Below, in pieces: positions 841 to 26,373 of a DNA stretch of 31,817 nucleotides. Numbering within the stretch: the first letter of the stretch is position 1; every line of letters starts with the position of its first letter. The position numbers and the translations under genes were made by a program. Below the pieces are notes generated by a model that worked only from the letters and a program-made list of their open reading frames with translations, was not told the origin of the DNA and searched no databases. Source of the stretch: a virus; the IMG/VR virus record IMGVR_UViG_3300027844_000891, positions 1-31,817 of that record. The stretch is one strand, 5' to 3'.

Positions 841-1374
841 TTGTTCCGAGTCCTGCCGAGAGTACTTACAGTGAGACAACTCCTACTATGGGAAGAAGAA
901 GAATCCGAGGTATATGAATTTTTAGTATTAGTTGAAAAAATACAAGATTTTTCTGGTAAAATATCAACCGCTGTTAGTGATGCGGTTTATGAATCAAAGT
1001 TTGGAGTAGACAGTATAGAGGACTTAGACTCACTTGGAAAAACTATAATAGGTGCGAGAGTAGAACATCACATAAGAAATCAACTCTCAGCCCTTCAGGG
1101 GACAACTTGTGATTGTTTATTGAATGGTCTAGAATTTGACATAAAAACTACTGTTCGAAAAAATTGGCAAATTTCCCCAAAGCAGGTGAGAAATAAATCT
1201 ACCCTTCTTCTTCTAAAAATAAACGATATAAATTTTTCTTGTGGTGTAATAAAAGTAAAAGAACAGTTTCTGAACGAAGGAAGAAACAGGGACCAAAAAA
1301 GGACACTAAGCGAATATGGTAGAAATAACATAGACTGGCTTATAGGGGGCTTTAAATATGAGAGACACAAGTAA
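841..1374 (+). CDS. NaeI-like restriction endonuclease catalytic domain
   Basis: The 177-aa product has E75, D91, D100 and K102, with the D-x8-D-x-K core embedded in TCDCLLNGLEFDIKTT. The spacings (16, 9 and 2 residues) equal those I recall for the NaeI active site (E70, D86, D95, K97). Downstream, GVIKVKEQFL...NRDQKRTLSEYGR resembles the NaeI stretch after its active site (GLVKVIPQFL...NRDLKRRLTPEGR). NaeI is about 317 aa with a second CAP-like DNA-binding domain; that domain is absent here, so this would be a stand-alone nuclease domain. There is no in-frame ATG. TTG 841 is the farthest start after the upstream stop; GTG 871, with GAGAG 8 nt before it, is an alternative. It overlaps the HAD gene by 17 nt. 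Activity is inferred, not shown. Confidence 0.7.
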   Translation: MFRVLPRVLTVRQLLLWEEEESEVYEFLVLVEKIQDFSGKISTAVSDAVYESKFGVDSIEDLDSLGKTIIGARVEHHIRNQLSALQGTTCDCLLNGLEFDIKTTVRKNWQISPKQVRNKSTLLLLKINDINFSCGVIKVKEQFLNEGRNRDQKRTLSEYGRNNIDWLIGGFKYERHK

Positions 1375-1783
1375 GAGATTAATAGTGGATTGTGATGGTG
1401 TCATAGCTGATAAAGGTAATGGTGGAGAATACGCTAAAGCAGAACCTCTACCACACGGCATAGAACAAGTTAACAAATTATACGATATGGGTTACGAGAT
1501 TGTATTGTATACTGCTAGATATGGGGATAGAGAACATGGAAATATTAATAGACAATATGAGAGAGGCTACGTTGAGTGGATGAAGTGGCTAGATGACAAC
1601 GGAGTTAGATATACATACGCATGGATGGGTAAACCAGCGGGAGCAATCTATATAGACGACAAGGCTGCTAGAGTTAGAGGTGACAATAAGGACGGATGGG
1701 GTGAAGTTTGGAAAGAAGTAGACGCATTAAAAGATAAAGACAGGTATGGCAATCCGATAGTAGACATTCCAGAACGGGAGTGA
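1358..1783 (+). CDS. HAD-superfamily phosphatase
   Basis: A 141-aa compact HAD hydrolase. Motif I is LIVDCDGVIAD near residues 8-18 (nucleophile and general-acid Asp), motif II is LYTARYGD (Thr), the motif III Lys is in WMGKPAG, and motif IV is YIDDKAAR. The protein is little more than the core fold, with a small insertion between motifs I and II, like short phage and capsule-cluster HAD phosphatases. The ATG has a purine-rich AGGGGG site about 9 nt upstream inside the preceding gene, so translation is probably coupled. Glycosyltransferase and nucleotide-sugar genes nearby fit a sugar-phosphate substrate, but a nucleotide or polynucleotide end is equally possible. Confidence 0.8.
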   Translation: MRDTSKRLIVDCDGVIADKGNGGEYAKAEPLPHGIEQVNKLYDMGYEIVLYTARYGDREHGNINRQYERGYVEWMKWLDDNGVRYTYAWMGKPAGAIYIDDKAARVRGDNKDGWGEVWKEVDALKDKDRYGNPIVDIPERE

Positions 1784-1789
1784 CAAATA

Positions 1790-2665
1790 ATGGCGGACTG
1801 CGAAGTTGTTAACCTTTTAGTTGATAACGCCGTCGAACGTGAATATATGACGGAGTGCGTTAATCTATTGTCTAGGATGTTAAAAGGGAACTTGAAAGTA
1901 GTTCTTAAGCATCATTTTCAAAAACTTCCTAGACCAGATAGAAAACGTATAGTACTGATTGACATATCCGATGAGGCACACAGTGTTCCTCAAGAAATTA
2001 ACAGGCCCGATGTGTTGATTATATTCCAACCGTACTATATGTTAAATATGTGGGAAGAGCCTTTACACAACCCTAAAGTCAAGCCATTACCGTTAGGTGT
2101 TACAAACGGGTTTAATCCTAAAGCTATACCAATAAAGGACAGAGAGTATGATTTTTGTTTTTTGGGACAAATCCCAGAAACAGGATCAAGACACAACTTC
2201 AAGATACATCTAGACAAACTTGTTGATAAAAAGAGGTATAACGGATTTGTAAAATATACGGAATCATTTAATACAGGATTATGTAAAAAGGATTATTCAA
2301 ATATCATGTCTAATTCTAAAGTTTCTTTATGTCCGCCGGGTGCGATAAGTAAAGAATCATTCAGAGTATTTGAATCAATAAAATCTGGATGCATGTTAGT
2401 ATTGAGATCGCTTCCGAAACTATGGTTCTATGAGAGGTCTATATTTTTCCCAACGGCTTGGCAGCATTTAGAGAGCGCGCTAGACTTTGTGTTTAGTTTG
2501 GGAGATGAAAAACTTCAAGGGATGCAAGATGCTTCTACCTCATATTATGAAGATCAGTTATCACCAGAACCTATAGCTAGGTATATGTTTAAGGAAACGG
2601 CCCATAGACTGCGTAACACAGAACCGGTAGATCCGTCTATACTATCAATGGCACAATCAAGGTAA
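1790..2665 (+). CDS. Exostosin-like (GT47-type) glycosyltransferase
   Basis: The 291-aa protein has the C-terminal nucleotide-sugar-binding half typical of exostosin-like GT-B enzymes: a KVSLCPPGAISKESFRVFE stretch in which Glu and Arg contact the donor, followed by ESIKSGCMLVL. The N-terminal half contains DVLIIFQPYYM and VKPLPLGVTNGF, then REYDFCFLGQI, which opens the second Rossmann domain. There is no signal peptide or membrane segment, so it should act in the cytoplasm on a soluble or lipid-linked acceptor, or on phage DNA or protein. The start has a CGGGAG element about 10 nt upstream and follows the HAD gene by 6 nt. Donor and acceptor are unknown. Confidence 0.7.
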   Translation: MADCEVVNLLVDNAVEREYMTECVNLLSRMLKGNLKVVLKHHFQKLPRPDRKRIVLIDISDEAHSVPQEINRPDVLIIFQPYYMLNMWEEPLHNPKVKPLPLGVTNGFNPKAIPIKDREYDFCFLGQIPETGSRHNFKIHLDKLVDKKRYNGFVKYTESFNTGLCKKDYSNIMSNSKVSLCPPGAISKESFRVFESIKSGCMLVLRSLPKLWFYERSIFFPTAWQHLESALDFVFSLGDEKLQGMQDASTSYYEDQLSPEPIARYMFKETAHRLRNTEPVDPSILSMAQSR

Positions 2666-2679
2666 AAGAGGATATAAAT

Positions 2680-4188
2680 ATGAAGCCGTCTACCTCAGTC
2701 CAAGGTCCAGTAGCCGAAGGAAAAAACTTTATAAACGGCAACTTCGTTGAAGTTTCTGGAGGTAATCTTTTTAAAAGTGAAGATCCATCCACTGGCGAAA
2801 TTTTAGGATTCTTTCCAGAGTCGAGTCAAAAGGATGTAGACTCTGTCTATCACTTTGCAAGAGACTCTTTTTATGGGTGGCGACAATACAGTAGAGTTCA
2901 GAGGGCAGAATATTTTCTTAAGTTAGCTAATATAATAGAAAAAAGAAAAGAAGAGATAGCCAGAGTAATAACTTTGGAAACAGGCAAGGTTTATAATGAA
3001 TCCATTGCAGAGGTAAATGAAGCCTTGCACATGGCTCAATACGCTTTCAGTACCGGAAGAATACCTTATGGGGAAGTACTCGCATCTGAGCTACCTGAAA
3101 AAGACGCTTACATGCTTCGTAAACCAAAAGGTGTGGTCGCAATTATTGCTCCTTTTAATTTTCCTTTTGCTATTGGTGGCTTCTGGTGTGCCGCGCCCGC
3201 TCTGGTAGAAGGTAATACTGTAATACTTAAACCAAGCGAAGATGTTCCTTGGGTTGGTCAGTTAACTGCTGAACTTTATCAGGAGGCTGGGTTCCCACCG
3301 GGAGTGTTTAATGTTATTCAAGGGGGAGCAGAAACAGGAGATCTTTTAATACACAAAGATGTTGATCACGTATGTTTCACGGGAAGTGCTGAAGTAGGAA
3401 TGCATGTTCGTAAAGTCTGTGCCGAAAGTTGGCATAAGACCTGCTCGTGTGAAATGGGAAGCAAGTCTGCGGTAATTATTCATGAAGATGCAAATTATGA
3501 TATGGCAATGGCCGCATGTTTGGCCAGCGCTTACAAACTATCTGGCCAACGTTGCGTGTCTGCTGGTAGGTTGATTGTTCACAGATCACTGCACCACAAA
3601 TTTTCCGAGGAATTTGCCAGCAGAAGCTCACAGTTAAAAACAGGAGACCCCTTTGAAAGCACCACCTTTTATGGCCCATTAGTCAATAGACAAGGCTTTG
3701 ATAAAGTGGTAAAATACAACAGTATGGTATTCAACGATTCAGAAGCAAGCGTTCTTCTGGCTGGCGTGGAAGTAGTTAAAGATGGACTTTACATAACACC
3801 AACAGTTTACAGGACGGAATGGAGAGATGCACCATATCTTAAACAAGAAGTATTTGGCCCCCATGTTTCAATCATTCCTTACGATACAGTGTCTGATGCT
3901 ATTGATATTTACAACGACACTGATTACGGGCTTTCTCTTGGGATAGTAACGGAGAACTTCAAAGTTGCCAGAAGAATTCGTAATGAATGTGATTTTGGTC
4001 TTGGTTACTGGAACGGTGGTAGCATTGCGGCTGAAAGTCATCTGGGATTCGGAGGAGTGAAGAAGTCTGGTAACGGACAGCCAAGTGCGGCTCGCACCTT
4101 TAGGTCCGTTACTCACGAGGTCGCGTGGACTGTTAATCACGGTGACAGTCTTAACTTTCCACAAGGTATGAACACGGGTAGTGACTAG
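2680..4188 (+). CDS. NAD(P)-dependent aldehyde dehydrogenase, possibly for aminoadipate semialdehyde
   Basis: A full-length 502-aa aldehyde dehydrogenase. Visible landmarks are the oxyanion-hole region IIAPFNFPFAIG, the cofactor-binding VILKPSEDVP, the FTGSAEVG turn, the general base Glu in CEMGSKSAVI, the nucleophile Cys in SGQRCVSAGR, and the conserved EVFGPHVSII and GFGGVKKSGNG blocks. All catalytic residues are present, so the enzyme should be active. The family oxidises aldehydes to acids. The aminotransferase and lysine-dehydrogenase-like genes downstream point to L-2-aminoadipate 6-semialdehyde (piperideine-6-carboxylate), giving 2-aminoadipate and NADH; that substrate is inferred from context. 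The SET gene begins at its stop codon (TAGTG), indicating coupled translation. It is unusual cargo for a phage. Confidence 0.93.
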   Translation: MKPSTSVQGPVAEGKNFINGNFVEVSGGNLFKSEDPSTGEILGFFPESSQKDVDSVYHFARDSFYGWRQYSRVQRAEYFLKLANIIEKRKEEIARVITLETGKVYNESIAEVNEALHMAQYAFSTGRIPYGEVLASELPEKDAYMLRKPKGVVAIIAPFNFPFAIGGFWCAAPALVEGNTVILKPSEDVPWVGQLTAELYQEAGFPPGVFNVIQGGAETGDLLIHKDVDHVCFTGSAEVGMHVRKVCAESWHKTCSCEMGSKSAVIIHEDANYDMAMAACLASAYKLSGQRCVSAGRLIVHRSLHHKFSEEFASRSSQLKTGDPFESTTFYGPLVNRQGFDKVVKYNSMVFNDSEASVLLAGVEVVKDGLYITPTVYRTEWRDAPYLKQEVFGPHVSIIPYDTVSDAIDIYNDTDYGLSLGIVTENFKVARRIRNECDFGLGYWNGGSIAAESHLGFGGVKKSGNGQPSAARTFRSVTHEVAWTVNHGDSLNFPQGMNTGSD

Positions 4189-4553
4189 TGGCACAGGTTG
4201 AAGTAAAGACCTTTATAAAAAGCACGATGAACGACATGATTTGTCTTCTTCCTAGCCATATTAGTGGTAATGGACTATTTGCTAATAAAGATATTGAAGC
4301 GAACAGTTTTCTTCATGTTACACACGTTCACCGTGACCTAGTAGGAAAAGGTAGTTGTGAAAATACGTGGATTAATCTTACTCCAAACCACCTATACAAC
4401 CACTCTAAGAAAAATGAAAATTGCACGTTAATCACAGACGGCTTAACAAAAGGTCTGATGGCAACTAAAAATATAGCCGCATGGAAAGAGATTTTAGTTG
4501 ATTACACAGAAGACAAGGAATTAGAACAACCACAGTCAGGATGGACTGAATAA
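4188..4553 (+). CDS. SET-domain protein (putative protein methyltransferase)
   Basis: A short 121-aa protein showing the SET-domain skeleton: N-terminal ISGNGLFANKDIEANSFL (the SxxxGxGLFA strand), then HLYNHSKKNENCTL, matching the NHSxxPNC pseudoknot motif, then LMATKNIAAWKEILVDYTED, matching the GEEI-x-x-DY end. SET proteins usually transfer methyl groups from SAM to lysine side chains. No post-SET cysteines are present. The GTG start overlaps the upstream stop by one base (TAGTG), and the stop overlaps the next ATG (TAATG), so the gene is locked into the metabolic operon. An alternative ATG start lies at 4229. Target unknown; it could methylate a phage or host protein, or a free amino acid. 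Confidence 0.75.
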   Translation: MAQVEVKTFIKSTMNDMICLLPSHISGNGLFANKDIEANSFLHVTHVHRDLVGKGSCENTWINLTPNHLYNHSKKNENCTLITDGLTKGLMATKNIAAWKEILVDYTEDKELEQPQSGWTE

Positions 4554-5353
4554 TGAGTGAATTTTTAATGTGTAATCCTGCATACTTTGATGTGAAGTAT
4601 GAAATAAACGACTGGATGAAAAAATTAAATAAACCAGACCTACCATTAGCCAAACGCCAGTGGTCTTATCTGCATGATAGACTGATCCAGAGTGGGGCGA
4701 CTCTTAAATATGCTACACCACACCCAGATTTTCCTGATATGGTTTTTACAGCAAACGCCGGGTTGGTAAAAGGGAAAAGGGTTGTATTATCCAACTTTAA
4801 ATATGAAGAAAGAAGAGGGGAAAAACAATACTTCAAAAAATGGTTTTTAGAAAACGGGTATCAGGTTATAGAAATACCAGAGGATATATTTTTTGAAGGT
4901 GCTGGAGACGCTCTATTTGTTGGTGGAGTGCTATTTATGGGATACGGATTTAGAACTAGTATAGAATCCCATAAAATTGTTGCACAAGCCCTTGGTGTAG
5001 ATTATGTATCATGTGAGTTGGTAGATCCAAGATTTTATCATTTGGACACCTGCTTCTTCCCATACGATAATGGACTGTTATATTATCTAAACGCTTTTTC
5101 CGTACCGTCACAAAGAGATATATTACTGAACCTTATATCTTTGAGTGTTTCGCGAGGCGGAATAACTGTTGTTCCAGCCTCTGATGAACAAGCATCTGAA
5201 TTTATATGCAACAGTGTTGTCAGCAATAGCAGCATAATAACGCCATCTAAAAGGTTTAATAAAACCTTTTTGGGATACAATATCTATAGCTGTGAAATGT
5301 CTGAATTCATTAAATCTGGAGGCGCTGTAAAATGCCTCACGTTAGAACTATAG
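4553..5353 (+). CDS. Amidinotransferase/dimethylargininase-fold hydrolase
   Basis: The 266-aa protein matches the guanidino-modifying superfamily (arginine deiminase, dimethylargininase, amidinotransferase). Key elements are PDMVFTANAG near 61-70, the acidic FEGAGDAL (E115, D119), the general-base His in FYHLDTCFFP (H163), and the C-terminal nucleophile Cys in GGAVKCLTL (C261). All these residues are intact, so hydrolysis of an arginine-like substrate (arginine, methylarginine or citrulline) through a thiouronium intermediate is likely. The closest-looking families are dimethylargininase and citrulline hydrolases. The ATG overlaps the SET stop, and the next gene's SD lies within the last codons. 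The substrate cannot be fixed from sequence, and it does not belong to the standard lysine pathway. Confidence 0.82.
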   Translation: MSEFLMCNPAYFDVKYEINDWMKKLNKPDLPLAKRQWSYLHDRLIQSGATLKYATPHPDFPDMVFTANAGLVKGKRVVLSNFKYEERRGEKQYFKKWFLENGYQVIEIPEDIFFEGAGDALFVGGVLFMGYGFRTSIESHKIVAQALGVDYVSCELVDPRFYHLDTCFFPYDNGLLYYLNAFSVPSQRDILLNLISLSVSRGGITVVPASDEQASEFICNSVVSNSSIITPSKRFNKTFLGYNIYSCEMSEFIKSGGAVKCLTLEL

Positions 5354-6540
5354 ATATCTTGAAAGAACATATACTTGTTGATGGGTTTCATATTGTAGTA
5401 GACCATCGGCAAAGTATTGGTAGTTGGATTGTAGACATAAACACTAAAAAAAAATATCTGGATTGCTATTCACAATTTGCCAGCCAACCATTAGGTTGGA
5501 AACACTCTTCTTTGATACAAGCTCAAAATGAGATGGGAAGTATCGGAAGAGTCAAAATGGCTAACAGTGATATGTATTCAGAGGAATATGCCCTTTTTGT
5601 AGAGAAATTTTCAGAGGTAACACCCGACTTCAAGCACTATTTTTTTATCGAAGGGGGTGCTTTAGGGGTAGAGAACTCTCTTAAGGCGGCTTTTGACTGG
5701 AAGGCTAAAAAGTTAGGATATACACATACTGTTGATATAAATAACCTAGACGTATTTCATCTAAAGAATGCCTTTCACGGTAGAACAGGGTATACACTAT
5801 CTCTTACCAATACCACCCCAGAAAAGACCTCGCTGTTTCCTAAGTTTAGATGGACTACCGTAGAGCCTGACTGGAAAGATATTGAACGTAGAATGCACCC
5901 AGAAGTTGCAGCAATAATAATCGAACCAATACAAGGGGAGGGTGGAGATAATCACTTTCCTCTAGAATTCTTTACAAACATAAGACGGATAGCAGACCAA
6001 AACGATTGTTTACTTATATTTGACGAAGTGCAGACTGGACTAGGGCTAACCGGAAAAATGTGGGCATACGAACATTTCGATGTTATCCCAGATATTATGT
6101 GCTTCGGAAAAAAAACACAGGTATGTGGATTCTGTTCGACTGGACGTATAGACGAAATAGAAGACAACGTTTTTACCACTAGCGGCAGAATTAATTCCAC
6201 TTGGGGTGGCAATATTGTTGACATGGTTAGATTCAGATACATAATAGACGCAATTCACAAGCATGAATTAGTTAAAAATGCTCACGATGTTGGGCGAGAT
6301 CTTTTGTGTGGGTTAAGAAAGATTACAAAGATTGAAAACATCCGAGGTAGAGGATTAATGATAGCATTCGATTTACCTTCCACCGAACTTCGTGATAGAA
6401 CGGTAGAAATTCTAGAAGATAACATGCTGATTTTAAAATGCGGGGAAAAATCAATCAGACTAAGACCTCCGTTGACATTTTCTACAGAGGACGCAGAGAT
6501 CGCGTGTGAGTATATAGAAAAGGCTGTTGACAAATTATGA
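5332..6540 (+). CDS. lat: L-lysine 6-aminotransferase-like class III PLP enzyme
   Basis: A 402-aa class III aminotransferase. Landmarks are FFIEGGALGVENSLKAAFDW (phosphate and substrate loop), FHGRTGYTLSLTN, IIIEPIQGEGGD, the PLP-ring Asp in LIFDEVQTG (D231), and the Schiff-base Lys in CFGKKTQVCG (K260). The combination of GKKTQVCG with RINSTWGGNIVDMVR is what I recall as characteristic of lysine 6-aminotransferases such as mycobacterial Lat, rather than ornithine or acetylornithine enzymes. The reaction would be lysine plus 2-oxoglutarate to aminoadipate semialdehyde plus glutamate. The ATG overlaps the upstream gene by 22 nt, with GGAGG 9 nt before it. Confidence in the fold is very high; confidence in lysine as substrate is moderate. 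Confidence 0.85.
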   Translation: MPHVRTIDILKEHILVDGFHIVVDHRQSIGSWIVDINTKKKYLDCYSQFASQPLGWKHSSLIQAQNEMGSIGRVKMANSDMYSEEYALFVEKFSEVTPDFKHYFFIEGGALGVENSLKAAFDWKAKKLGYTHTVDINNLDVFHLKNAFHGRTGYTLSLTNTTPEKTSLFPKFRWTTVEPDWKDIERRMHPEVAAIIIEPIQGEGGDNHFPLEFFTNIRRIADQNDCLLIFDEVQTGLGLTGKMWAYEHFDVIPDIMCFGKKTQVCGFCSTGRIDEIEDNVFTTSGRINSTWGGNIVDMVRFRYIIDAIHKHELVKNAHDVGRDLLCGLRKITKIENIRGRGLMIAFDLPSTELRDRTVEILEDNMLILKCGEKSIRLRPPLTFSTEDAEIACEYIEKAVDKL

Positions 6541-7388
6541 AGATACAAACTGTAGGAATCATAGGACAGGGGTTTGTTGGTGAAGCATTAGCAGAATGTT
6601 TTTCTCCACACTACAAGGTATACACTTACGATAAAGTACACGCAAATTTATCTACGCACAAAAGCGTGAGTTCTTTGTCTAGGGATTGCGATTTACTTTT
6701 TGTCTGTGTTCCAACGCCGATGAAAGAAGATGGGTCTTGTGATGTTTCAATAGTTAAAGAAGTCGTGCTACAATCCTGTAGTACAGGAAGAAGAAATATA
6801 GTAGTCATTAAGTCTACCGTACCTCCCAACACAACCAAAGCCCTACAGGAGTTATGTTTAGATTCACAAATAGTTTTCAACCCAGAGTTTCTGCTTGAAA
6901 GAAATGCAGAGGAAGATTTTAGAAATACCAGTAGGGTTATTTTGGGTGGCCCTAGACCTGCAACAACCAGACTAAAACAGTTCTACTCAAAAATATTCCC
7001 AAAAGCAGATATAATAAAAACAGATTCTACAATAGCGGAAATGGTAAAGTATCTAACAAACTCGTTTCTGGCTGTTAAAGTTTCTTTTGCTAATGAAATC
7101 TATAATATATGCAACAGCCTGAGTGTAGATTATGACAAGGTAATAGAATATTCTCTTTACGATGAAAGACTCGGACAGAGCCACTGGTCAGTCCCCGGAC
7201 CCGATGGACACTATGGTTTTGGTGGTAGTTGTTTTCCAAAGGATATAAACGCTCTGATGCATCTCGCACAGACCCTTTGCATCAAGGCCAATACTATAAA
7301 CGGAGCTTGGAACACGAACTTAATGGCAAGACCAGAAAAAGACTGGGAACTTCTTAAAGGAAGGGCCGTAGTAAGTAACGATAAATAA
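6537..7388 (+). CDS. Short UDP-glucose/GDP-mannose dehydrogenase-family protein
   Basis: The N-terminal NAD domain is intact (VGIIGQGFVGEA, then DLLFVCVPTPM and IVVIKSTVPPNTT), followed by FNPEFLLERNA, the central helix EMVKYLTNSFLAVKVSFANEI, and the catalytic-Cys loop GFGGSCFPKDINAL. These are diagnostic for nucleotide-sugar 6-dehydrogenases, which oxidise the sugar C6 alcohol twice to the acid. Normal members have 390-450 aa with a C-terminal NDP-binding domain; this 283-aa version ends soon after the central helix, so that domain is missing. The ATG overlaps the upstream stop (ATGA). It may work with a partner subunit, on a smaller substrate, or as a reduced form kept by phages. The stop looks genuine, since the next gene has its own good SD. 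Confidence 0.85.
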   Translation: MKIQTVGIIGQGFVGEALAECFSPHYKVYTYDKVHANLSTHKSVSSLSRDCDLLFVCVPTPMKEDGSCDVSIVKEVVLQSCSTGRRNIVVIKSTVPPNTTKALQELCLDSQIVFNPEFLLERNAEEDFRNTSRVILGGPRPATTRLKQFYSKIFPKADIIKTDSTIAEMVKYLTNSFLAVKVSFANEIYNICNSLSVDYDKVIEYSLYDERLGQSHWSVPGPDGHYGFGGSCFPKDINALMHLAQTLCIKANTINGAWNTNLMARPEKDWELLKGRAVVSNDK

Positions 7389-7405
7389 ATTACTAGAGGT
7401 AAAAT

Positions 7406-8479
7406 ATGAGATCTACAATATTTGGGGTTGGGCAGATGGGCAAATGCATAGCCGCTGCCATGGAAAAGCTAGGCCACGAACTTACCGTTGTAGATAGCTC
7501 TGCTGATTCGTTGTCTCAGTGTGGAGATATTCTGGGAAATTTTTCCAAGCATAACTTTGTACACTACCACGACACATCAAAAGAACACTACGAAGATTTC
7601 CTTGGTGATACTGATGTTGTAATTTCTGCATTACCCTATCATCAAACAGCTAGGCTTGCCAGATATTGTATAGGAAACGGTGTTAGATACTGCGACTTGG
7701 GAGGTAGCGATCAAACCAGTAACGCGATAAACAATTTAGCATCACAAAATGCAAGCAAGCCTGTCATGACTGATGTCGGGCTAGCCCCCGGCTGGATAAA
7801 TATATTAACAGAACATCTCTACAATGAATGCGTGGCAAAAAAAGGTGGAATGATACCTGAAACTGTAGAAATGATGGTTGGTGGCATACCTAAAGATCCA
7901 AGCAATCTATTAAAATACTTATGCACTTGGTCTGTTGATGGGTTGATAAATGAGTATAGAGGAAACTGCTTAGTATTAAAACATGGTCTTCAAGATGTAA
8001 CTTCTTCTTTAGGAGGTTTATCTTCCGTTACAGCCAGCGTAGGCGATCTTGAATGCTTTCATACTAGTGGCGGTGCTTCAAATACAATAGACTTAATGCA
8101 AAAAAGGGGTGTGCAAAACTGTCATTATAAAACAATAAGATGGCCCGGACACTGTGAGTTGGTAAAATTCCTAATTCATGACTGCGCACACGAAGATGAT
8201 GACTTAAAAAGGATTTTTTCCGAAGCGTGCAAGCCTACTAAAAATAAGAATGAAGACTTGGTAATCATGCGAGTATCCATGGACGAATGGGTTGAAGAAA
8301 AAATTATATCCTCAGACGCCTCTTGGTCAGCGATGCAAAAAGCGACAGCCTTTCCAACGGCGGCGATAGCTACTATTATTGGTAGTGGCGTTTTAGATTC
8401 CCACCGAATTGTTTCGTATGAAAAGATCCCCTATGAAAAATTTAGTGAAATTTTAGAAAAACTACTAGGGGGGACATAA
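7406..8479 (+). CDS. Lysine 6-dehydrogenase-like (saccharopine reductase family) oxidoreductase
   Basis: A 357-aa protein with an N-terminal Rossmann motif (FGVGQMGKCIAAAM), a VVISALPYHQT strand, YCDLGGSD, and the block MTDVGLAPGWINIL that typifies saccharopine reductases and lysine 6-dehydrogenases. Later MVGGIP, LECFHTSGGAS and YKTIRWPGHCELVKFL match the lysine 6-dehydrogenase pattern as I remember it (VGGIP, EAFHTSGG, YKTIRYRGH). Such enzymes oxidise the lysine 6-amino group to the semialdehyde with NAD(P), releasing ammonia, or reduce/oxidise saccharopine. This would converge with the upstream aminotransferase on the same semialdehyde. SD AGAGGT lies 6-7 nt before the ATG. The exact direction and substrate remain inferred. 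Confidence 0.8.
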   Translation: MRSTIFGVGQMGKCIAAAMEKLGHELTVVDSSADSLSQCGDILGNFSKHNFVHYHDTSKEHYEDFLGDTDVVISALPYHQTARLARYCIGNGVRYCDLGGSDQTSNAINNLASQNASKPVMTDVGLAPGWINILTEHLYNECVAKKGGMIPETVEMMVGGIPKDPSNLLKYLCTWSVDGLINEYRGNCLVLKHGLQDVTSSLGGLSSVTASVGDLECFHTSGGASNTIDLMQKRGVQNCHYKTIRWPGHCELVKFLIHDCAHEDDDLKRIFSEACKPTKNKNEDLVIMRVSMDEWVEEKIISSDASWSAMQKATAFPTAAIATIIGSGVLDSHRIVSYEKIPYEKFSEILEKLLGGT

Positions 8480-8482
8480 CCT

Positions 8483-8980
8483 ATGCCAACAAGTCAAGAA
8501 GAAGCCTTCAGTATTGTCGAGATACTGGATGAATATCTAGACGAGAGACAGGCTAGAGAACTTACTGCTCGATTGGAGCAGGAGATTGGGCAAAAGACTG
8601 ACAACGATTCCCTCAAAGTTAGTCTTGAAATGCTAAAAGCCCTGTATTCTAAAAAACCAAAGAGAATAGACTACTTAAAGAAAGGTCTTCTATACTCTAT
8701 CATTCTGTTTCACACGTCTATTATAGCTGTAAACATTGTTGCATTTTTTATACTACCTTTTCTATATCCGCTATGGGTTTGGGTTCCTATTAATAGTTTT
8801 ATCCTAACCGTTACATTTACCAGAGAGATATGTCCGCTAACAAGATTGGAAAACTACCTTAGAACTTCTCTTGGGGTTCAAAGGATAGGAGGATTTATAG
8901 GACACTACTTTGTTAAACCAATAAAGAACTTTCTAAAAAACCACGGGGGCGAAAAGGCATCGACTGGTAGTGCAGATTAA
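8483..8980 (+). CDS. DUF2784-like small integral membrane protein
   Basis: The 165-aa product has a charged helical N-terminus (about 1-60) and two hydrophobic segments at about residues 68-90 and 92-112. These are followed by REICPLTRLENYLR and GGFIGHYFVKPI. The CPLT-x-LEN-x-LR block and the FI-x-HY ending resemble DUF2784 membrane proteins, whose function is unknown. A GGGGGGA site precedes the ATG by about 9 nt. Its last 12 codons (8945-8980) lie inside the tmRNA gene, so the C-terminal GGEKASTG residues are dictated by the tmRNA 5' end. Cleavage of the transcript at the tmRNA 5' end would remove the stop codon from this mRNA. Confidence 0.65.
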   Translation: MPTSQEEAFSIVEILDEYLDERQARELTARLEQEIGQKTDNDSLKVSLEMLKALYSKKPKRIDYLKKGLLYSIILFHTSIIAVNIVAFFILPFLYPLWVWVPINSFILTVTFTREICPLTRLENYLRTSLGVQRIGGFIGHYFVKPIKNFLKNHGGEKASTGSAD

Positions 8981-9284
8981 TAATGGCATGGAGTGGTTGG
9001 TCAGTGGGCCACTATAAAAGCTGACCAAAAAGTAATTGCCGAAAAGCAATTCGCGTTAGCTGCCTAGAGTAGCTGGGGGTTGCACAAACCTTTTTATCCA
9101 ATTGTGCTGACTCCGATAATCGGATAGGGTTAGGCAGACCCGATATATTAGTGCCTGATGACCATAATGGTCTGATGATGGTCAATCCATCTAGTTTCGT
9201 CTGCTGTACGATAACAACAGACTAACCATGTAGAAATTATTATTCAAGCTAGACAGGACGCGGGTTCGATTCCCGCCGCCTCCA
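8945..9284 (+). ncRNA. ssrA: tmRNA (one-piece), tag AEKQFALAA
   Basis: The 5' end GGGGGCG (8945-8951) pairs with CGCCTCC (9277-9283) to form a 7-bp acceptor stem, followed by A at 9284. The T arm is GCGGG-TTCGATT-CCCGC (9260-9276). The 5' GGGGGCGAAAAGGCATCGAC is close to the tmRNA consensus. A tag ORF starts at GCC 9038 and encodes AEKQFALAA, stop TAG 9065-9067; the ALAA end matches bacterial degradation tags. TAAUU precedes the resume codon, keeping the A at -4. CCA is not encoded and must be added by the host. A run of seven T (9285-9291) follows and could terminate transcription. The total of 340 nt is a normal tmRNA length. The stem-loops between are presumed pseudoknots, not individually folded here. 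Confidence 0.95.
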
Positions 9285-9305
9285 TTTTTTTATGTCAGGA
9301 TAAGA

Positions 9306-9791
9306 ATGAATAAAACTATAGCAATCAGTGGTGGATTTGATCCTGTACATATTGGCCATCTGAATATGATTACAGATGCCGCCGAAAATGGTAGCGTTAT
9401 TGTTATTCTAAATAGTGACTTATGGCTAGAACAAAAAAAGGGATACGTGTTCATGCCCTTTGAAGAAAGAAAAGCAATCCTCGAAGCGTTTAGCGATGTC
9501 CATCACGTTGTTGGGGTGGATGACTCTGACGGTACTGTGTGTTCTGCTTTAGATATATTACGACCGTGTTATTTCGGAAACGGGGGAGATAGGGTATCTG
9601 ATAATGTTCCAGAAGTAAAGTTTTGTAAGAACTATGGTATTGGGTTGATATGGAATCTTGGAGGAAATAAAATTCAGAGCAGCAGCAGTCTTGTGACTCA
9701 CGCAAATGATTATGACTACAAAGATAGAGATCTTAAACATCACAACGATCCCGATAATCCCTTTAGACTTGAAGTTGGAGGAGAAGGTTAA
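9306..9791 (+). CDS. Cytidylyltransferase-like nucleotidyltransferase
   Basis: A 161-aa single-domain enzyme of the HxGH nucleotidyltransferase superfamily. ISGGFDPVHIGHL at residues 7-19 holds the nucleotide-binding HIGH motif, MPFEERKAILEAF the following helix, YFGNGGDR the central strand, and KIQSSSSLV the C-terminal ISS-type motif. It resembles glycerol-3-phosphate/ethanolamine-phosphate cytidylyltransferases and the nucleotidyl domain of RfaE/HldE, which couple CTP or ATP to a phosphorylated small molecule. SD AGGA lies about 6 nt before the ATG, just downstream of the tmRNA. The stop overlaps the next start (TAATG). The likely role is activating a sugar or alcohol phosphate for surface-polymer synthesis; substrate unassigned. 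Confidence 0.85.
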   Translation: MNKTIAISGGFDPVHIGHLNMITDAAENGSVIVILNSDLWLEQKKGYVFMPFEERKAILEAFSDVHHVVGVDDSDGTVCSALDILRPCYFGNGGDRVSDNVPEVKFCKNYGIGLIWNLGGNKIQSSSSLVTHANDYDYKDRDLKHHNDPDNPFRLEVGGEG

Positions 9792-22496: not shown

Positions 22497-24515
22497 ATGC
22501 GCAAATTCCTTTTCTTAACAGTCCTTTTTTTAGGGGCGGTTCTAAATACCGGTCCAGCAAACGCGCAACCTTTAACTATCGACCAAGCACTAGATGCGGT
22601 GTGCAGGGTCAACACCAACGAAGCCAGAGGTAGTGGAACTGTCTTTCAAGAAGACGAAGAAAACTACTATATACTGACCAATGGTCACGTAATTGAAAGA
22701 GCTAAAAGAGGGCATTTAGAATTCTTTCAAGACGGTTACAAGTCTGCAATGCTTCCTTTTAAAACTGAATACGTAGCTTACGAAGAAGGCACCGCTCTTG
22801 ACCTAGCTATAGTCTCAGTAAAAAAGAAATATTTTGGCCGATACCCCCCGAGGGTAATTCCCCTAGCTCCCAAAGGCACGAAAATTGGTGCGAACGATCT
22901 TGTTATGGCTGGCGGGTGTCCTTCTGCTCAATGGGCCTGCGCTTGGAAGGGTAGGGTTCTTAGTAACACGGGAGCCGTTGTTAGCTTTAATGCGGCTCCC
23001 ATCGGTGGACAGTCTGGTAGCGGTGTTCTCATTCTTGTTAAAGATGACAGGGGAGAGATTCACACTAGACTGGGCATCTTACTAGCTTGGAGAGTTGGAG
23101 ACGGGGCTTGGACAGATGATGGCCCAAATGACTACGGCGCTGGCTTATCTTTAAAGCAAATTTACGATATCATTGAGGGTAATGGTCAGGGGTATCCTAT
23201 TGAAACTTCTTACAATTTGGTGTACGAAGAAAAAGAAGAGGTGAAAAACACCAAGTCCGCAGAAGAAAGATTAAGTAAGGTTTGTCCGCATTGTGGTCAT
23301 AAAATTAAAGACCATGTGGTTATTCCCTATGAAGGTGGCCTTAGAAAGACCGTCAGGGGTGAGTTTATGTTTTGCCCTGAACTGAAGCTCTCCGATGGGA
23401 GCATCGAAGATACGGCAAAATATTATGGTGGCATCAAAGTTGGTGAGTTATACGAAGGAAGCGGGTTGTTTCCTTGGTGTCCTTGGGATAACAGGCCTCC
23501 AAACCAACCTCCTCAATTACCCCCCTCCAACCCAAATCCGCCAGACAACGGCGGTGGTTTTGATGGCTGGCCCGGTAGACCAGATCTCGGTGGCCCCGTA
23601 GATCCTCCCGTAGACCCTCCTGTGGACTTTGGGAAGGAGCGACAGGAGTACCTCGACAAGATTACCGAGCTTCAAGAAAAGCTGACTAATTTAGAGGGTC
23701 TTTCCGAGAGTCTCAAGGCAGAGTTGTCTGGAATTAATGGGAATCTTTCGGGAGCCAATAATGAAATCGACGGACTAAAAGACATGCTTGGCGCTGTTGA
23801 GGGCCAGAAGCTAACTCTTAAGTCTAGAATTGATGAACTTTTGAGCTTTGCGAGTGATAAAGATAGGGTTATAGATGAATTGAAAGAAGGAGGAATGCAT
23901 TATCTTGATGGGCCAACTGGCGGTAATGGCAACACTGTTGAAAATGTAAGCTTTACTCTTGGTGGTATGAGCTTGGGAATGTTGGCGTTAAAATACGGAG
24001 TTCCGTTGTTACTCAACAGAAGACGAAGAAAAAAGAAAAAGGATGAAGATAATGAAGATTTAGATAGAGAAGAAGGGTATGATAACATGGGGCCTTCGCA
24101 TCCTCCAAGCTTGGATGATGGCCCAAAAGAGCATGTTCATCGACACGAACATATTCATAAACACAAGCATGCAAATGAATATATAATGCCTCCTGATGAA
24201 TGCCCTCAACCTCAAACAAGCAATGAAATTGACGATTCGCAGAGAGGACAGAGCGGGCCTAATTCTGGGTTTGCTGGATATGGGATGCCTGTAAACGTAG
24301 CAACCCCATATTATCAGCAGCCACAACCGGTCCATGGACTTCCACCACAGTTTATTAATATACCGTTTAGCACTAGAAAAACGGTAACATCAGAGCAGAT
24401 TATGACGGTTATTGGTGAATTGACTAATGAGTATCGAAACGACCAAACCATGACGATGGGGCAGCTTGATACACTTATTCGTCAGCGCCTAAAAGAAAAA
24501 TTTAACATAGAATAA
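22497..24515 (+). CDS. Membrane-anchored trypsin-like serine protease with coiled coil
   Basis: A 672-aa multi-part protein. Residues 1-24 are a Sec signal peptide ending ANAQP. Residues 25-225 are a trypsin-like domain with H64 (TNGHVI), D102 (ALDLAIV) and S173 (GGQSGSG). Four Cys (C263, C266, C293, C328; CPHC and FCPE pairs) suggest a zinc ribbon. Residues 332-378 are proline-rich with a PVDPPVDPPVD repeat; about 380-465 is coiled coil; 486-506 is one membrane helix followed by RRRRKKKK. The C-terminal tail has a histidine-rich HVHRHEHIHKHKH stretch and a short helical end. The predicted topology is protease outside, tail in the cytoplasm. ATG 22497 has GAGGA about 8 nt upstream. The target is unknown; HtrA/Deg-like quality control or superinfection/lysis functions are guesses. 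Confidence 0.85.
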   Translation: MRKFLFLTVLFLGAVLNTGPANAQPLTIDQALDAVCRVNTNEARGSGTVFQEDEENYYILTNGHVIERAKRGHLEFFQDGYKSAMLPFKTEYVAYEEGTALDLAIVSVKKKYFGRYPPRVIPLAPKGTKIGANDLVMAGGCPSAQWACAWKGRVLSNTGAVVSFNAAPIGGQSGSGVLILVKDDRGEIHTRLGILLAWRVGDGAWTDDGPNDYGAGLSLKQIYDIIEGNGQGYPIETSYNLVYEEKEEVKNTKSAEERLSKVCPHCGHKIKDHVVIPYEGGLRKTVRGEFMFCPELKLSDGSIEDTAKYYGGIKVGELYEGSGLFPWCPWDNRPPNQPPQLPPSNPNPPDNGGGFDGWPGRPDLGGPVDPPVDPPVDFGKERQEYLDKITELQEKLTNLEGLSESLKAELSGINGNLSGANNEIDGLKDMLGAVEGQKLTLKSRIDELLSFASDKDRVIDELKEGGMHYLDGPTGGNGNTVENVSFTLGGMSLGMLALKYGVPLLLNRRRRKKKKDEDNEDLDREEGYDNMGPSHPPSLDDGPKEHVHRHEHIHKHKHANEYIMPPDECPQPQTSNEIDDSQRGQSGPNSGFAGYGMPVNVATPYYQQPQPVHGLPPQFINIPFSTRKTVTSEQIMTVIGELTNEYRNDQTMTMGQLDTLIRQRLKEKFNIE

Positions 24516-25325: not shown

Positions 25326-25343
25326 TTAATTCGATTTCTACTT

Positions 25344-25375
25344 GATGGCCCCCGAAGGGGGGCCATCTTTTTTTT
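25344..25375 (+). terminator. Strong intrinsic terminator
   Basis: GATGGCCCCC (25344-25353) pairs perfectly with GGGGGCCATC (25358-25367) around loop GAAG, followed by eight T. It ends the transcription unit that includes the first protease and the 265-aa protein. Confidence 0.95.
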
Positions 25376-25395
25376 ACACAGGAAGGATGCCTACC

Positions 25396-26373
25396 ATGAA
25401 ATTTCTAATCGCTTTAATGGCCGCTGCCATTTTATCCCTGCCCACACACACTTCGGCAGAAGACAAATCTGTAAAAGAGATTTCTCAGCTTTTGCAAGAC
25501 ATTTCTGTAACAGTCAAGAGCGGGGGTGGAGAGGGTTCTGGAGTAATTATTACACGAACTATTCCCATTGCCATAGACTCCAAAGGCAAACCGCTAACGG
25601 CAAAGGTAAATTTTATCTGGACGGCAGCACATGTAATCGACAATTTAAGGTCTGTTAGAACAGTAATCAAGGATGGTAGGCCAATTAAGATTGTTGAATT
25701 TAAGGATGCTCAAATCGTTCAGGAGTTAGTCGAAGATGGCCGTCGCGTTGGCGAGGTCAAGATGGAAGCCAAGGTTATTAAATATAGCGACTCTGAAAAC
25801 GGAGAAGACCTAGCTCTTCTGATGGTTAGAAAGAAGGGCTTTATTGACAAATCTGTAACCTTCTATAATGACACTGGCAAGCCGGTGGCTATTGGTACAG
25901 AATTATACCATGTGGGAAGTTTGCTTGGCCAAACTGGCTCGAACAGCCTGACGAGGGGTATAATATCTCAGATAGGAAGAGTTCTTGACTTGGGTACTGG
26001 CGATGGTGTAGTTTTTGACCAAACGACGGTTACGGCATTTCCGGGGTCCAGTGGCGGTGGCGTTTTTCTATCAGAGAGGTCGGGAAATAAGGCGGGACAA
26101 TACGTGGGAATGCTGGTTAGAGGTGCGGGAGAAACTTTCAATCTTATAGTGCCCGTTAGAAGGATTAGAGAGTACGCACAAAGGGAGGGAATTCTATGGT
26201 CCGTTGATGAAGCTGCGCCTACCCCTACGCTAAAGGAGATTCTATCTTTACCGATAGAAGGAGGGGCAACAAAATCAAGTGAAGGAATCAAGCTCACAAA
26301 GGACTCTGTGAAGTTTCCGGTACTATTCAAACATAATCACCACAGAGGCAACAACGATGCTAAACGTAAGTAA
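25396..26373 (+). CDS. Secreted trypsin-like (HtrA/Deg-type) serine protease
   Basis: Start set at ATG 25396, 8 nt after GGAAGGA; ATG 25387 overlaps the SD, and an earlier in-frame ATG lies in the terminator. The 325-aa product has a signal peptide (MKFLIALMAAAILSLPTHTS, cleavage near SAE). The catalytic triad is H79 (TAAHVID), D138 (GEDLALL) and S219 (FPGSSGGG), with GSGVIIT opening the barrel. There is no PDZ domain and no later membrane segment; the C-terminus is basic (HRGNNDAKRK). It is smaller than the first protease and unlikely to be a duplicate, since only the triad surroundings agree. The predicted location is the periplasm or outside. Its last 17 nt overlap a small membrane ORF. 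Confidence 0.85.
   Translation: MKFLIALMAAAILSLPTHTSAEDKSVKEISQLLQDISVTVKSGGGEGSGVIITRTIPIAIDSKGKPLTAKVNFIWTAAHVIDNLRSVRTVIKDGRPIKIVEFKDAQIVQELVEDGRRVGEVKMEAKVIKYSDSENGEDLALLMVRKKGFIDKSVTFYNDTGKPVAIGTELYHVGSLLGQTGSNSLTRGIISQIGRVLDLGTGDGVVFDQTTVTAFPGSSGGGVFLSERSGNKAGQYVGMLVRGAGETFNLIVPVRRIREYAQREGILWSVDEAAPTPTLKEILSLPIEGGATKSSEGIKLTKDSVKFPVLFKHNHHRGNNDAKRK

Follow-up and report, generated by a model that had tools for sequence, protein, structure and literature searches.

Phage-borne tmRNAs are already established, as one survey observed them in about 2.3% of the 18,146 phage genomes it covered (PMC9004378) and they have been listed in an update of the tmRNA Website (PMC4131195). They include the genes carried in the genomes of the mycobacteriophages Bxz1, Cali, Catera and Wildcat and of Bacillus phage G, which are unrelated to the phage described here and have Mycobacterium or Bacillus hosts (PMC4131195), as well as the marine phage-borne tmRNA of the methylophage Melnitz and the pelagimyophages, which has been used to argue about host history (PMC9004378). 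In this study, we investigated a tmRNA gene, likewise of a marine phage, in an IMG/VR virus record of 31,817 bases (IMGVR_UViG_3300027844_000891), referred to below in its full length as the window. The RNA is one-piece and planctomycete-like, whereas that of Melnitz and the pelagimyophages is two-piece, of alphaproteobacterial type, and accompanied by a glutamine riboswitch. The 595 kb uncultured phage LR756511.1 likewise has a tmRNA, but with the tag ANPEFAMAA; it shares with the window an aldehyde dehydrogenase (53% identical) and rIIA (33% identical) and, unlike the window, possesses its own gene of the CCA-adding-enzyme family (positions 311655-329115 of this phage are our sequence L125).

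Compared with the one-piece bacterial tmRNAs of Rfam family RF00023, the window tmRNA has the same tRNA-like domain, tag frame, P2, PK1, PK2, PK4 and T arm, but differs in being phage-borne, in a PK3 that is loosely kept in its family, and in the existence of two exchangeable PK2-PK3 types. In one Planctomycetota order, the tmRNAs of the MAGs SZAS-5 and BP6.bin28 display the identical tag AEKQFALAA and no encoded CCA. Their 5' half and 3' end show 74-78% identity to the window, though the PK2-PK4 region is only about 42% identical and is shorter in the phage. What is new here is that a large lineage of uncultured phages has a tmRNA with affinity to planctomycetes, together with the module exchange. 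The gene has a complete anatomy, it is conserved in related phages, and its closest sampled bacterial relatives belong to one planctomycete order. It is likely that we are dealing with a functional tmRNA gene of a tailed, probably planctomycete-infecting phage, descended from a chromosomal ssrA of planctomycetes and kept for trans-translation during infection.

Gene anatomy and secondary structure

The first-pass annotation, made from the letters of the DNA, had proposed a phage-encoded tmRNA at 8945-9284 with the tag AEKQFALAA, no encoded CCA, and a visible acceptor stem, T arm, 5' consensus and tag reading frame. All of this was borne out when ARAGORN and a covariance model were run, the setting being a viral record with phage genes both in the window and in its relatives. 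ARAGORN called exactly 8945-9284 (+) with this tag, and RF00023 matched 8945-9287 over the full model with 128.1 bits (E 5e-50) against a gathering score of 47. The tmRNA alone also folded better than 100 of 100 dinucleotide-preserving shuffles (z -2.95).

Among the features that define membership of RF00023, we observed a tRNA-like domain with a G3-U acceptor stem, a T arm and the D-region consensus. The acceptor stem is near-identical across all homologues and its third pair is the G3-U wobble; a G-U acceptor pair is the feature recognised by alanyl-tRNA synthetase, for which it has an identity role. The D region reads GAAAAGGCAUCGAC, a slight departure from the UUCGAC consensus that is found likewise in the related contig L007. 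The tag frame resumes at the codon GCC (9038-9040) and stops at TAG (9065-9067), while TTT, and hence no encoded CCA, comes after the discriminator A at 9284. Upstream of the tmRNA no promoter better than chance was detected, and no dedicated terminator scored above chance; the T run at 9285-9291, directly after the acceptor stem, may be a candidate transcription end.

For the comparison of structure, we used an alignment of eight phage homologues (Table 1). As the candidate helices were taken from the window sequence, which favours those helices on cells paired, slid controls and compensatory changes provide the better evidence. Pairs with changes on both sides numbered four in PK1, six in PK2 and two in the T stem, and the covariation score of these three elements was equalled by no shuffle. 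The named pairs of PK4 were formed in 100% over the eight homologues. PK3 was partly conserved, with 62.5% and 43.6% of cells paired for its two stems, and the hairpin at 9160-9172 is likewise retained by some members of the phage tmRNA family only. The covariance score is far from weak and the pseudoknots fold, with PK3 conserved in part only, and the reading as a tmRNA stands.

Table 1. Positions of the tmRNA gene, its parts and its neighbours in the window. Percentages are cells paired over eight phage homologues, a measure that favours helices taken from the window sequence.
Feature	Position	Strand	Details
DUF2784 membrane-protein gene	8483..8980	+	3' end overlaps tmRNA; last 12 codons (stop included) inside tmRNA
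Complete one-piece tmRNA (ssrA) gene, no encoded CCA	8945..9284	+	ARAGORN; Rfam RF00023
Acceptor stem, 5' strand GGGGGCG, partner CGCCTCC	8945..8951 / 9277-9283	+	sequence
Helix P2, 5' strand, partner 9227-9242	8978..8990	+	100% of cells paired, 8 phage homologues
PK1: 8992-8996/9009-9013 and 8999-9004/9021-9026	8992..9026	+	100% paired
Tag reading frame GCC GAA AAG CAA TTC GCG TTA GCT GCC TAG	9038..9067	+	AEKQFALAA, then stop
Helix across tag-frame end, 9056-9063/9069-9076	9056..9076	+	95% of cells paired
PK2: 9078-9080/9088-9090 and 9082-9087/9102-9107	9078..9107	+	100% paired
PK3: 9127-9129/9139-9141 and 9132-9136/9152-9156	9127..9156	+	forms in window
PK4: 9197-9199/9209-9211 and 9200-9207/9214-9221	9197..9221	+	one C-A mismatch
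T arm, stem 9260-9264/9272-9276	9260..9276	+	100% paired
Cytidylyltransferase-like gene (PF01467), adjoins tmRNA	9306..9791	+	neighbourhood kept in related phages

Planctomycete affinity and the PK2-PK3 module

The suggestion that the tag could be a clue to the host was pursued by comparing it with bacterial tmRNA tags, and it was supported. With all codon choices allowed, the exact tag was detected in only 2 of 84,980 species genomes, both of them Planctomycetota and both as real tmRNA tags. In the planctomycete order to which one of these two genomes belongs, we observed the tags AEKQFVMAA, AEKQYAMVA, ATEKQFALAA and ANKQYALAA and many copies of ANKQFSMAA, the commonest, from which the phage tag differs slightly; Planctomycetota outside the order display many other tags. 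A strict tag pattern (F or Y) recovered a single genome among 392 planctomycete genomes, so the exact tag is rare even in planctomycetes. When bacterial tmRNAs were ranked by the alignment score of the 5' half, the two tag-sharing genomes came first, followed by members of the order.

A maximum-likelihood tree of 84 tmRNAs placed the phage tmRNAs together with the planctomycete sequence L013 inside the order, with 98% ultrafast bootstrap. The tmRNA of E. coli is the sole one in this tree from outside Planctomycetota, so the wider placement rests on the scan of tags over the whole collection. A huge-phage sequence (L127) also fell inside the group of phages and L013, but on a very long branch, and its placement is not trusted. 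Nearly every blastn match between 16 kb of the window and 170 genomes of the order was to the tmRNA, the best showing 83% identity over 86 bases spanning PK1 and the tag, and the tmRNA 5' half gave only 16 matches in 392 genomes across the phylum, among which the AEKQFALAA genome was again best. CCA is not encoded in 25 of the 25 tmRNAs sampled from the order, whereas the phylum sample lacks it in 20 of 49, so that its absence is a property common to these tmRNAs rather than a defect. The tag scan, the tags of the order and the tree all point to Planctomycetota.

The DUF1501 family is greatly expanded in planctomycetes, yet occurs beyond them; the DUF1501 protein (PF07394, 246 bits) encoded by a 161 kb relative of the window is consistent with a planctomycete host. 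The phage contig L154 carries, at 2507-3742 (-), a DUF1501 protein with a twin-arginine-like start. A comparison of the order's 170 genomes with the initial 16 kb of the window detected no CRISPR-like match. Judged from these sequence comparisons, a planctomycete is the probable host, though the tmRNA gene could have been acquired from a former host. Planctomycetes are common in water; to our knowledge few planctomycete phages appear to be known, and our literature search gave almost none. A tag found almost exclusively in one group offers an inexpensive way of marking the host of large uncultured phages.

Among viral sequences, the exact tag AEKQFALAA was detected in six contigs, and a full tmRNA of the window type in seven phage contigs; the exact tag string was not found in the literature searched. 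ARAGORN disclosed full tmRNAs in related phage contigs with the tags AEKQFALAA and AEKQYALAA or the read-out ADEKSTAEKQFALAA, and one further tmRNA, in L005, was found by the Rfam model alone. The longer read-out ADEKSTAEKQFALAA belongs to L007 (7822-8165), where the start was probably called too early; in contrast to the related tmRNAs, that of L007 has an encoded CCA, and its T arm is strongly different. Another phage contig, L014, harbors at 1365-1707 (-) a tmRNA with the tag ATPMAMAA. This tag is near AEYPMAMAA, AEEPMAMAA and AKQPMAMAA of planctomycetes, and in the tree the L014 tmRNA clusters with the tmRNAs that bear them.

Outside positions 124-250 of the window tmRNA, the phage tmRNAs show 73-95% mutual identity. 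Within this stretch they fall into two module types with 40-47% identity between them, and membership of a type does not track the flanking sequence. For instance, the identity between L002 and L004 is 95% over the 5' half, drops to 43% in the middle and returns to 94% towards the 3' end; for L003 and L010 the values are 94%, 41% and 87%, respectively. The simplest reading of this pattern would be that the PK2-PK3 module has been swapped by recombination, which fits earlier work in which PK2-PK4 proved more replaceable than PK1. These phages provide a natural set of tmRNAs in which the pseudoknot module varies while the tag and the tRNA-like domain are fixed, and which can be used to test which parts matter. 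Taken together, we lean towards the view that large uncultured tailed phages infect planctomycetes and took their tmRNA from one planctomycete order, that they kept the tRNA-like half and the tag while the PK2-PK3 module recombined between two unrelated types, and that the phage thereby supplies its own ribosome-rescue RNA matched to the proteases of its host.

Proposed function and partner genes

A search of the window and of nine related viral records, which are partly fragments, detected neither SmpB nor a CCA-adding enzyme, so the tmRNA would have to use the SmpB, CCA-adding enzyme and alanyl-tRNA synthetase of the host, and we infer that the phage tmRNA depends on host factors. The CCA-adding enzyme of the host would complete the 3' end, the host alanyl-tRNA synthetase would charge the RNA through the G3-U pair, and host SmpB would deliver it to ribosomes stalled on broken mRNA, after which the AEKQFALAA tag would direct the incomplete protein to a Clp-type protease of the host. 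During infection, the cutting of host mRNA and the shutdown of host transcription would leave ribosomes on broken messages, and the likely benefit to the phage would be a ribosome pool that is kept free and the recycling of faulty peptides. The rescue of ribosomes on cleaved mRNA and the steering of tagged proteins to host proteases both appear plausible. As the tag is identical or near-identical to planctomycete chromosomal tags, tagged proteins more likely enter the normal degradation route of the host than a new one. For the tmRNA of phage Melnitz, the roles proposed were to maintain the hijacked machinery or to tag host proteins for recycling (PMC9004378).

Other roles, such as a decoy for SmpB or an answer to mRNA-cutting defences, are possible. 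That the RNA serves as a regulator or decoy, which competes for SmpB, damps or redirects host trans-translation, or counters a defence that cuts mRNA or tmRNA, nevertheless seems unlikely to us. The tmRNA of phage DS6A, which amounts to roughly the tRNA-like domain only, does resemble a strong tmRNA inhibitor (PMC4131195), and the slight departure of the phage tag from ANKQFSMAA could be taken in the same sense. However, all functional parts are present in the window tmRNA, including an open tag frame whose product ends in ALAA before a stop codon, and most relatives retain the tag; a decoy would need neither the open frame nor the kept tag.

Still less probable is a passive remnant, either an att-site duplicate or a host fragment left by imprecise excision of an ssrA-integrated prophage, even though integration at ssrA is common and parts of the gene can be found in prophages (PMC9004378, PMC11590407). 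The gene is of full length and not a 3' fragment, its helices are kept by compensatory change across phages, and the same cytidylyltransferase-like neighbour accompanies it in several of them. In addition, no integrase (PF00589) was detected in the window or in the nine related viral records of up to 161 kb, partly fragments, which makes an attachment-site remnant unlikely, and with ssrA at full length this candidate was rejected. A tmRNA gene kept for trans-translation is the reading that we prefer.

The tmRNA gene in its phage setting

Genes of phage type in the window encode rIIA, rIIB, ribonucleotide reductase and dCMP deaminase. The only rIIA from an annotated phage to align over nearly the whole protein was that of Ruegeria phage vB_RpoS-V10, with 27% identity, and the nucleotide search of annotated phages gave a short T-arm match only, indicating that there is no cultured close relative. 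In L009, L010 and L011, the tmRNA precedes the cytidylyltransferase-like gene at a distance of 20 to about 310 bases, and relatives of this gene were found in contigs of up to 161 kb. The 161 kb relative displays terminase large subunit, portal, tape measure and DNA polymerase III alpha domains, and the best annotated-phage match to this terminase shows about 23-24% identity; these genes and the low identities indicate a large tailed phage family without close cultured relatives. That the window might be a piece of bacterial chromosome misfiled as a virus, with the tmRNA as a host gene, is scarcely credible and was rejected, its many metabolic genes notwithstanding. The window has the phage genes named above, its gene set recurs in the 161 kb contig alongside terminase, portal and tape measure, and over the 16 kb of the window that were compared, the nearest bacterial genomes have little more than the tmRNA in common with it.

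On the 5' side, the DUF2784 gene enters the tmRNA by 36 bases, which supply its last codons and its stop. By contrast, the DUF2784 gene of twelve related contigs has its own end and no tmRNA alongside, so that a cassette was probably joined at the 5' end of the tmRNA.

Several other genes of the window were also observed. The run at 2680-8479, which belongs to amino-acid metabolism and consists of genes for an aldehyde dehydrogenase, a DDAH-like hydrolase, a class-III aminotransferase, a UDP-glucose dehydrogenase-like protein and a saccharopine dehydrogenase, looks like a lysine-degradation cassette in a phage, and the aldehyde dehydrogenase and the aminotransferase are also present in the 161 kb relative. 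A protein with a NaeI-like restriction endonuclease domain (PF09126) is encoded at 841-1374, and two proteins with trypsin-like protease domains at 22497-24515 and 25342-26373.
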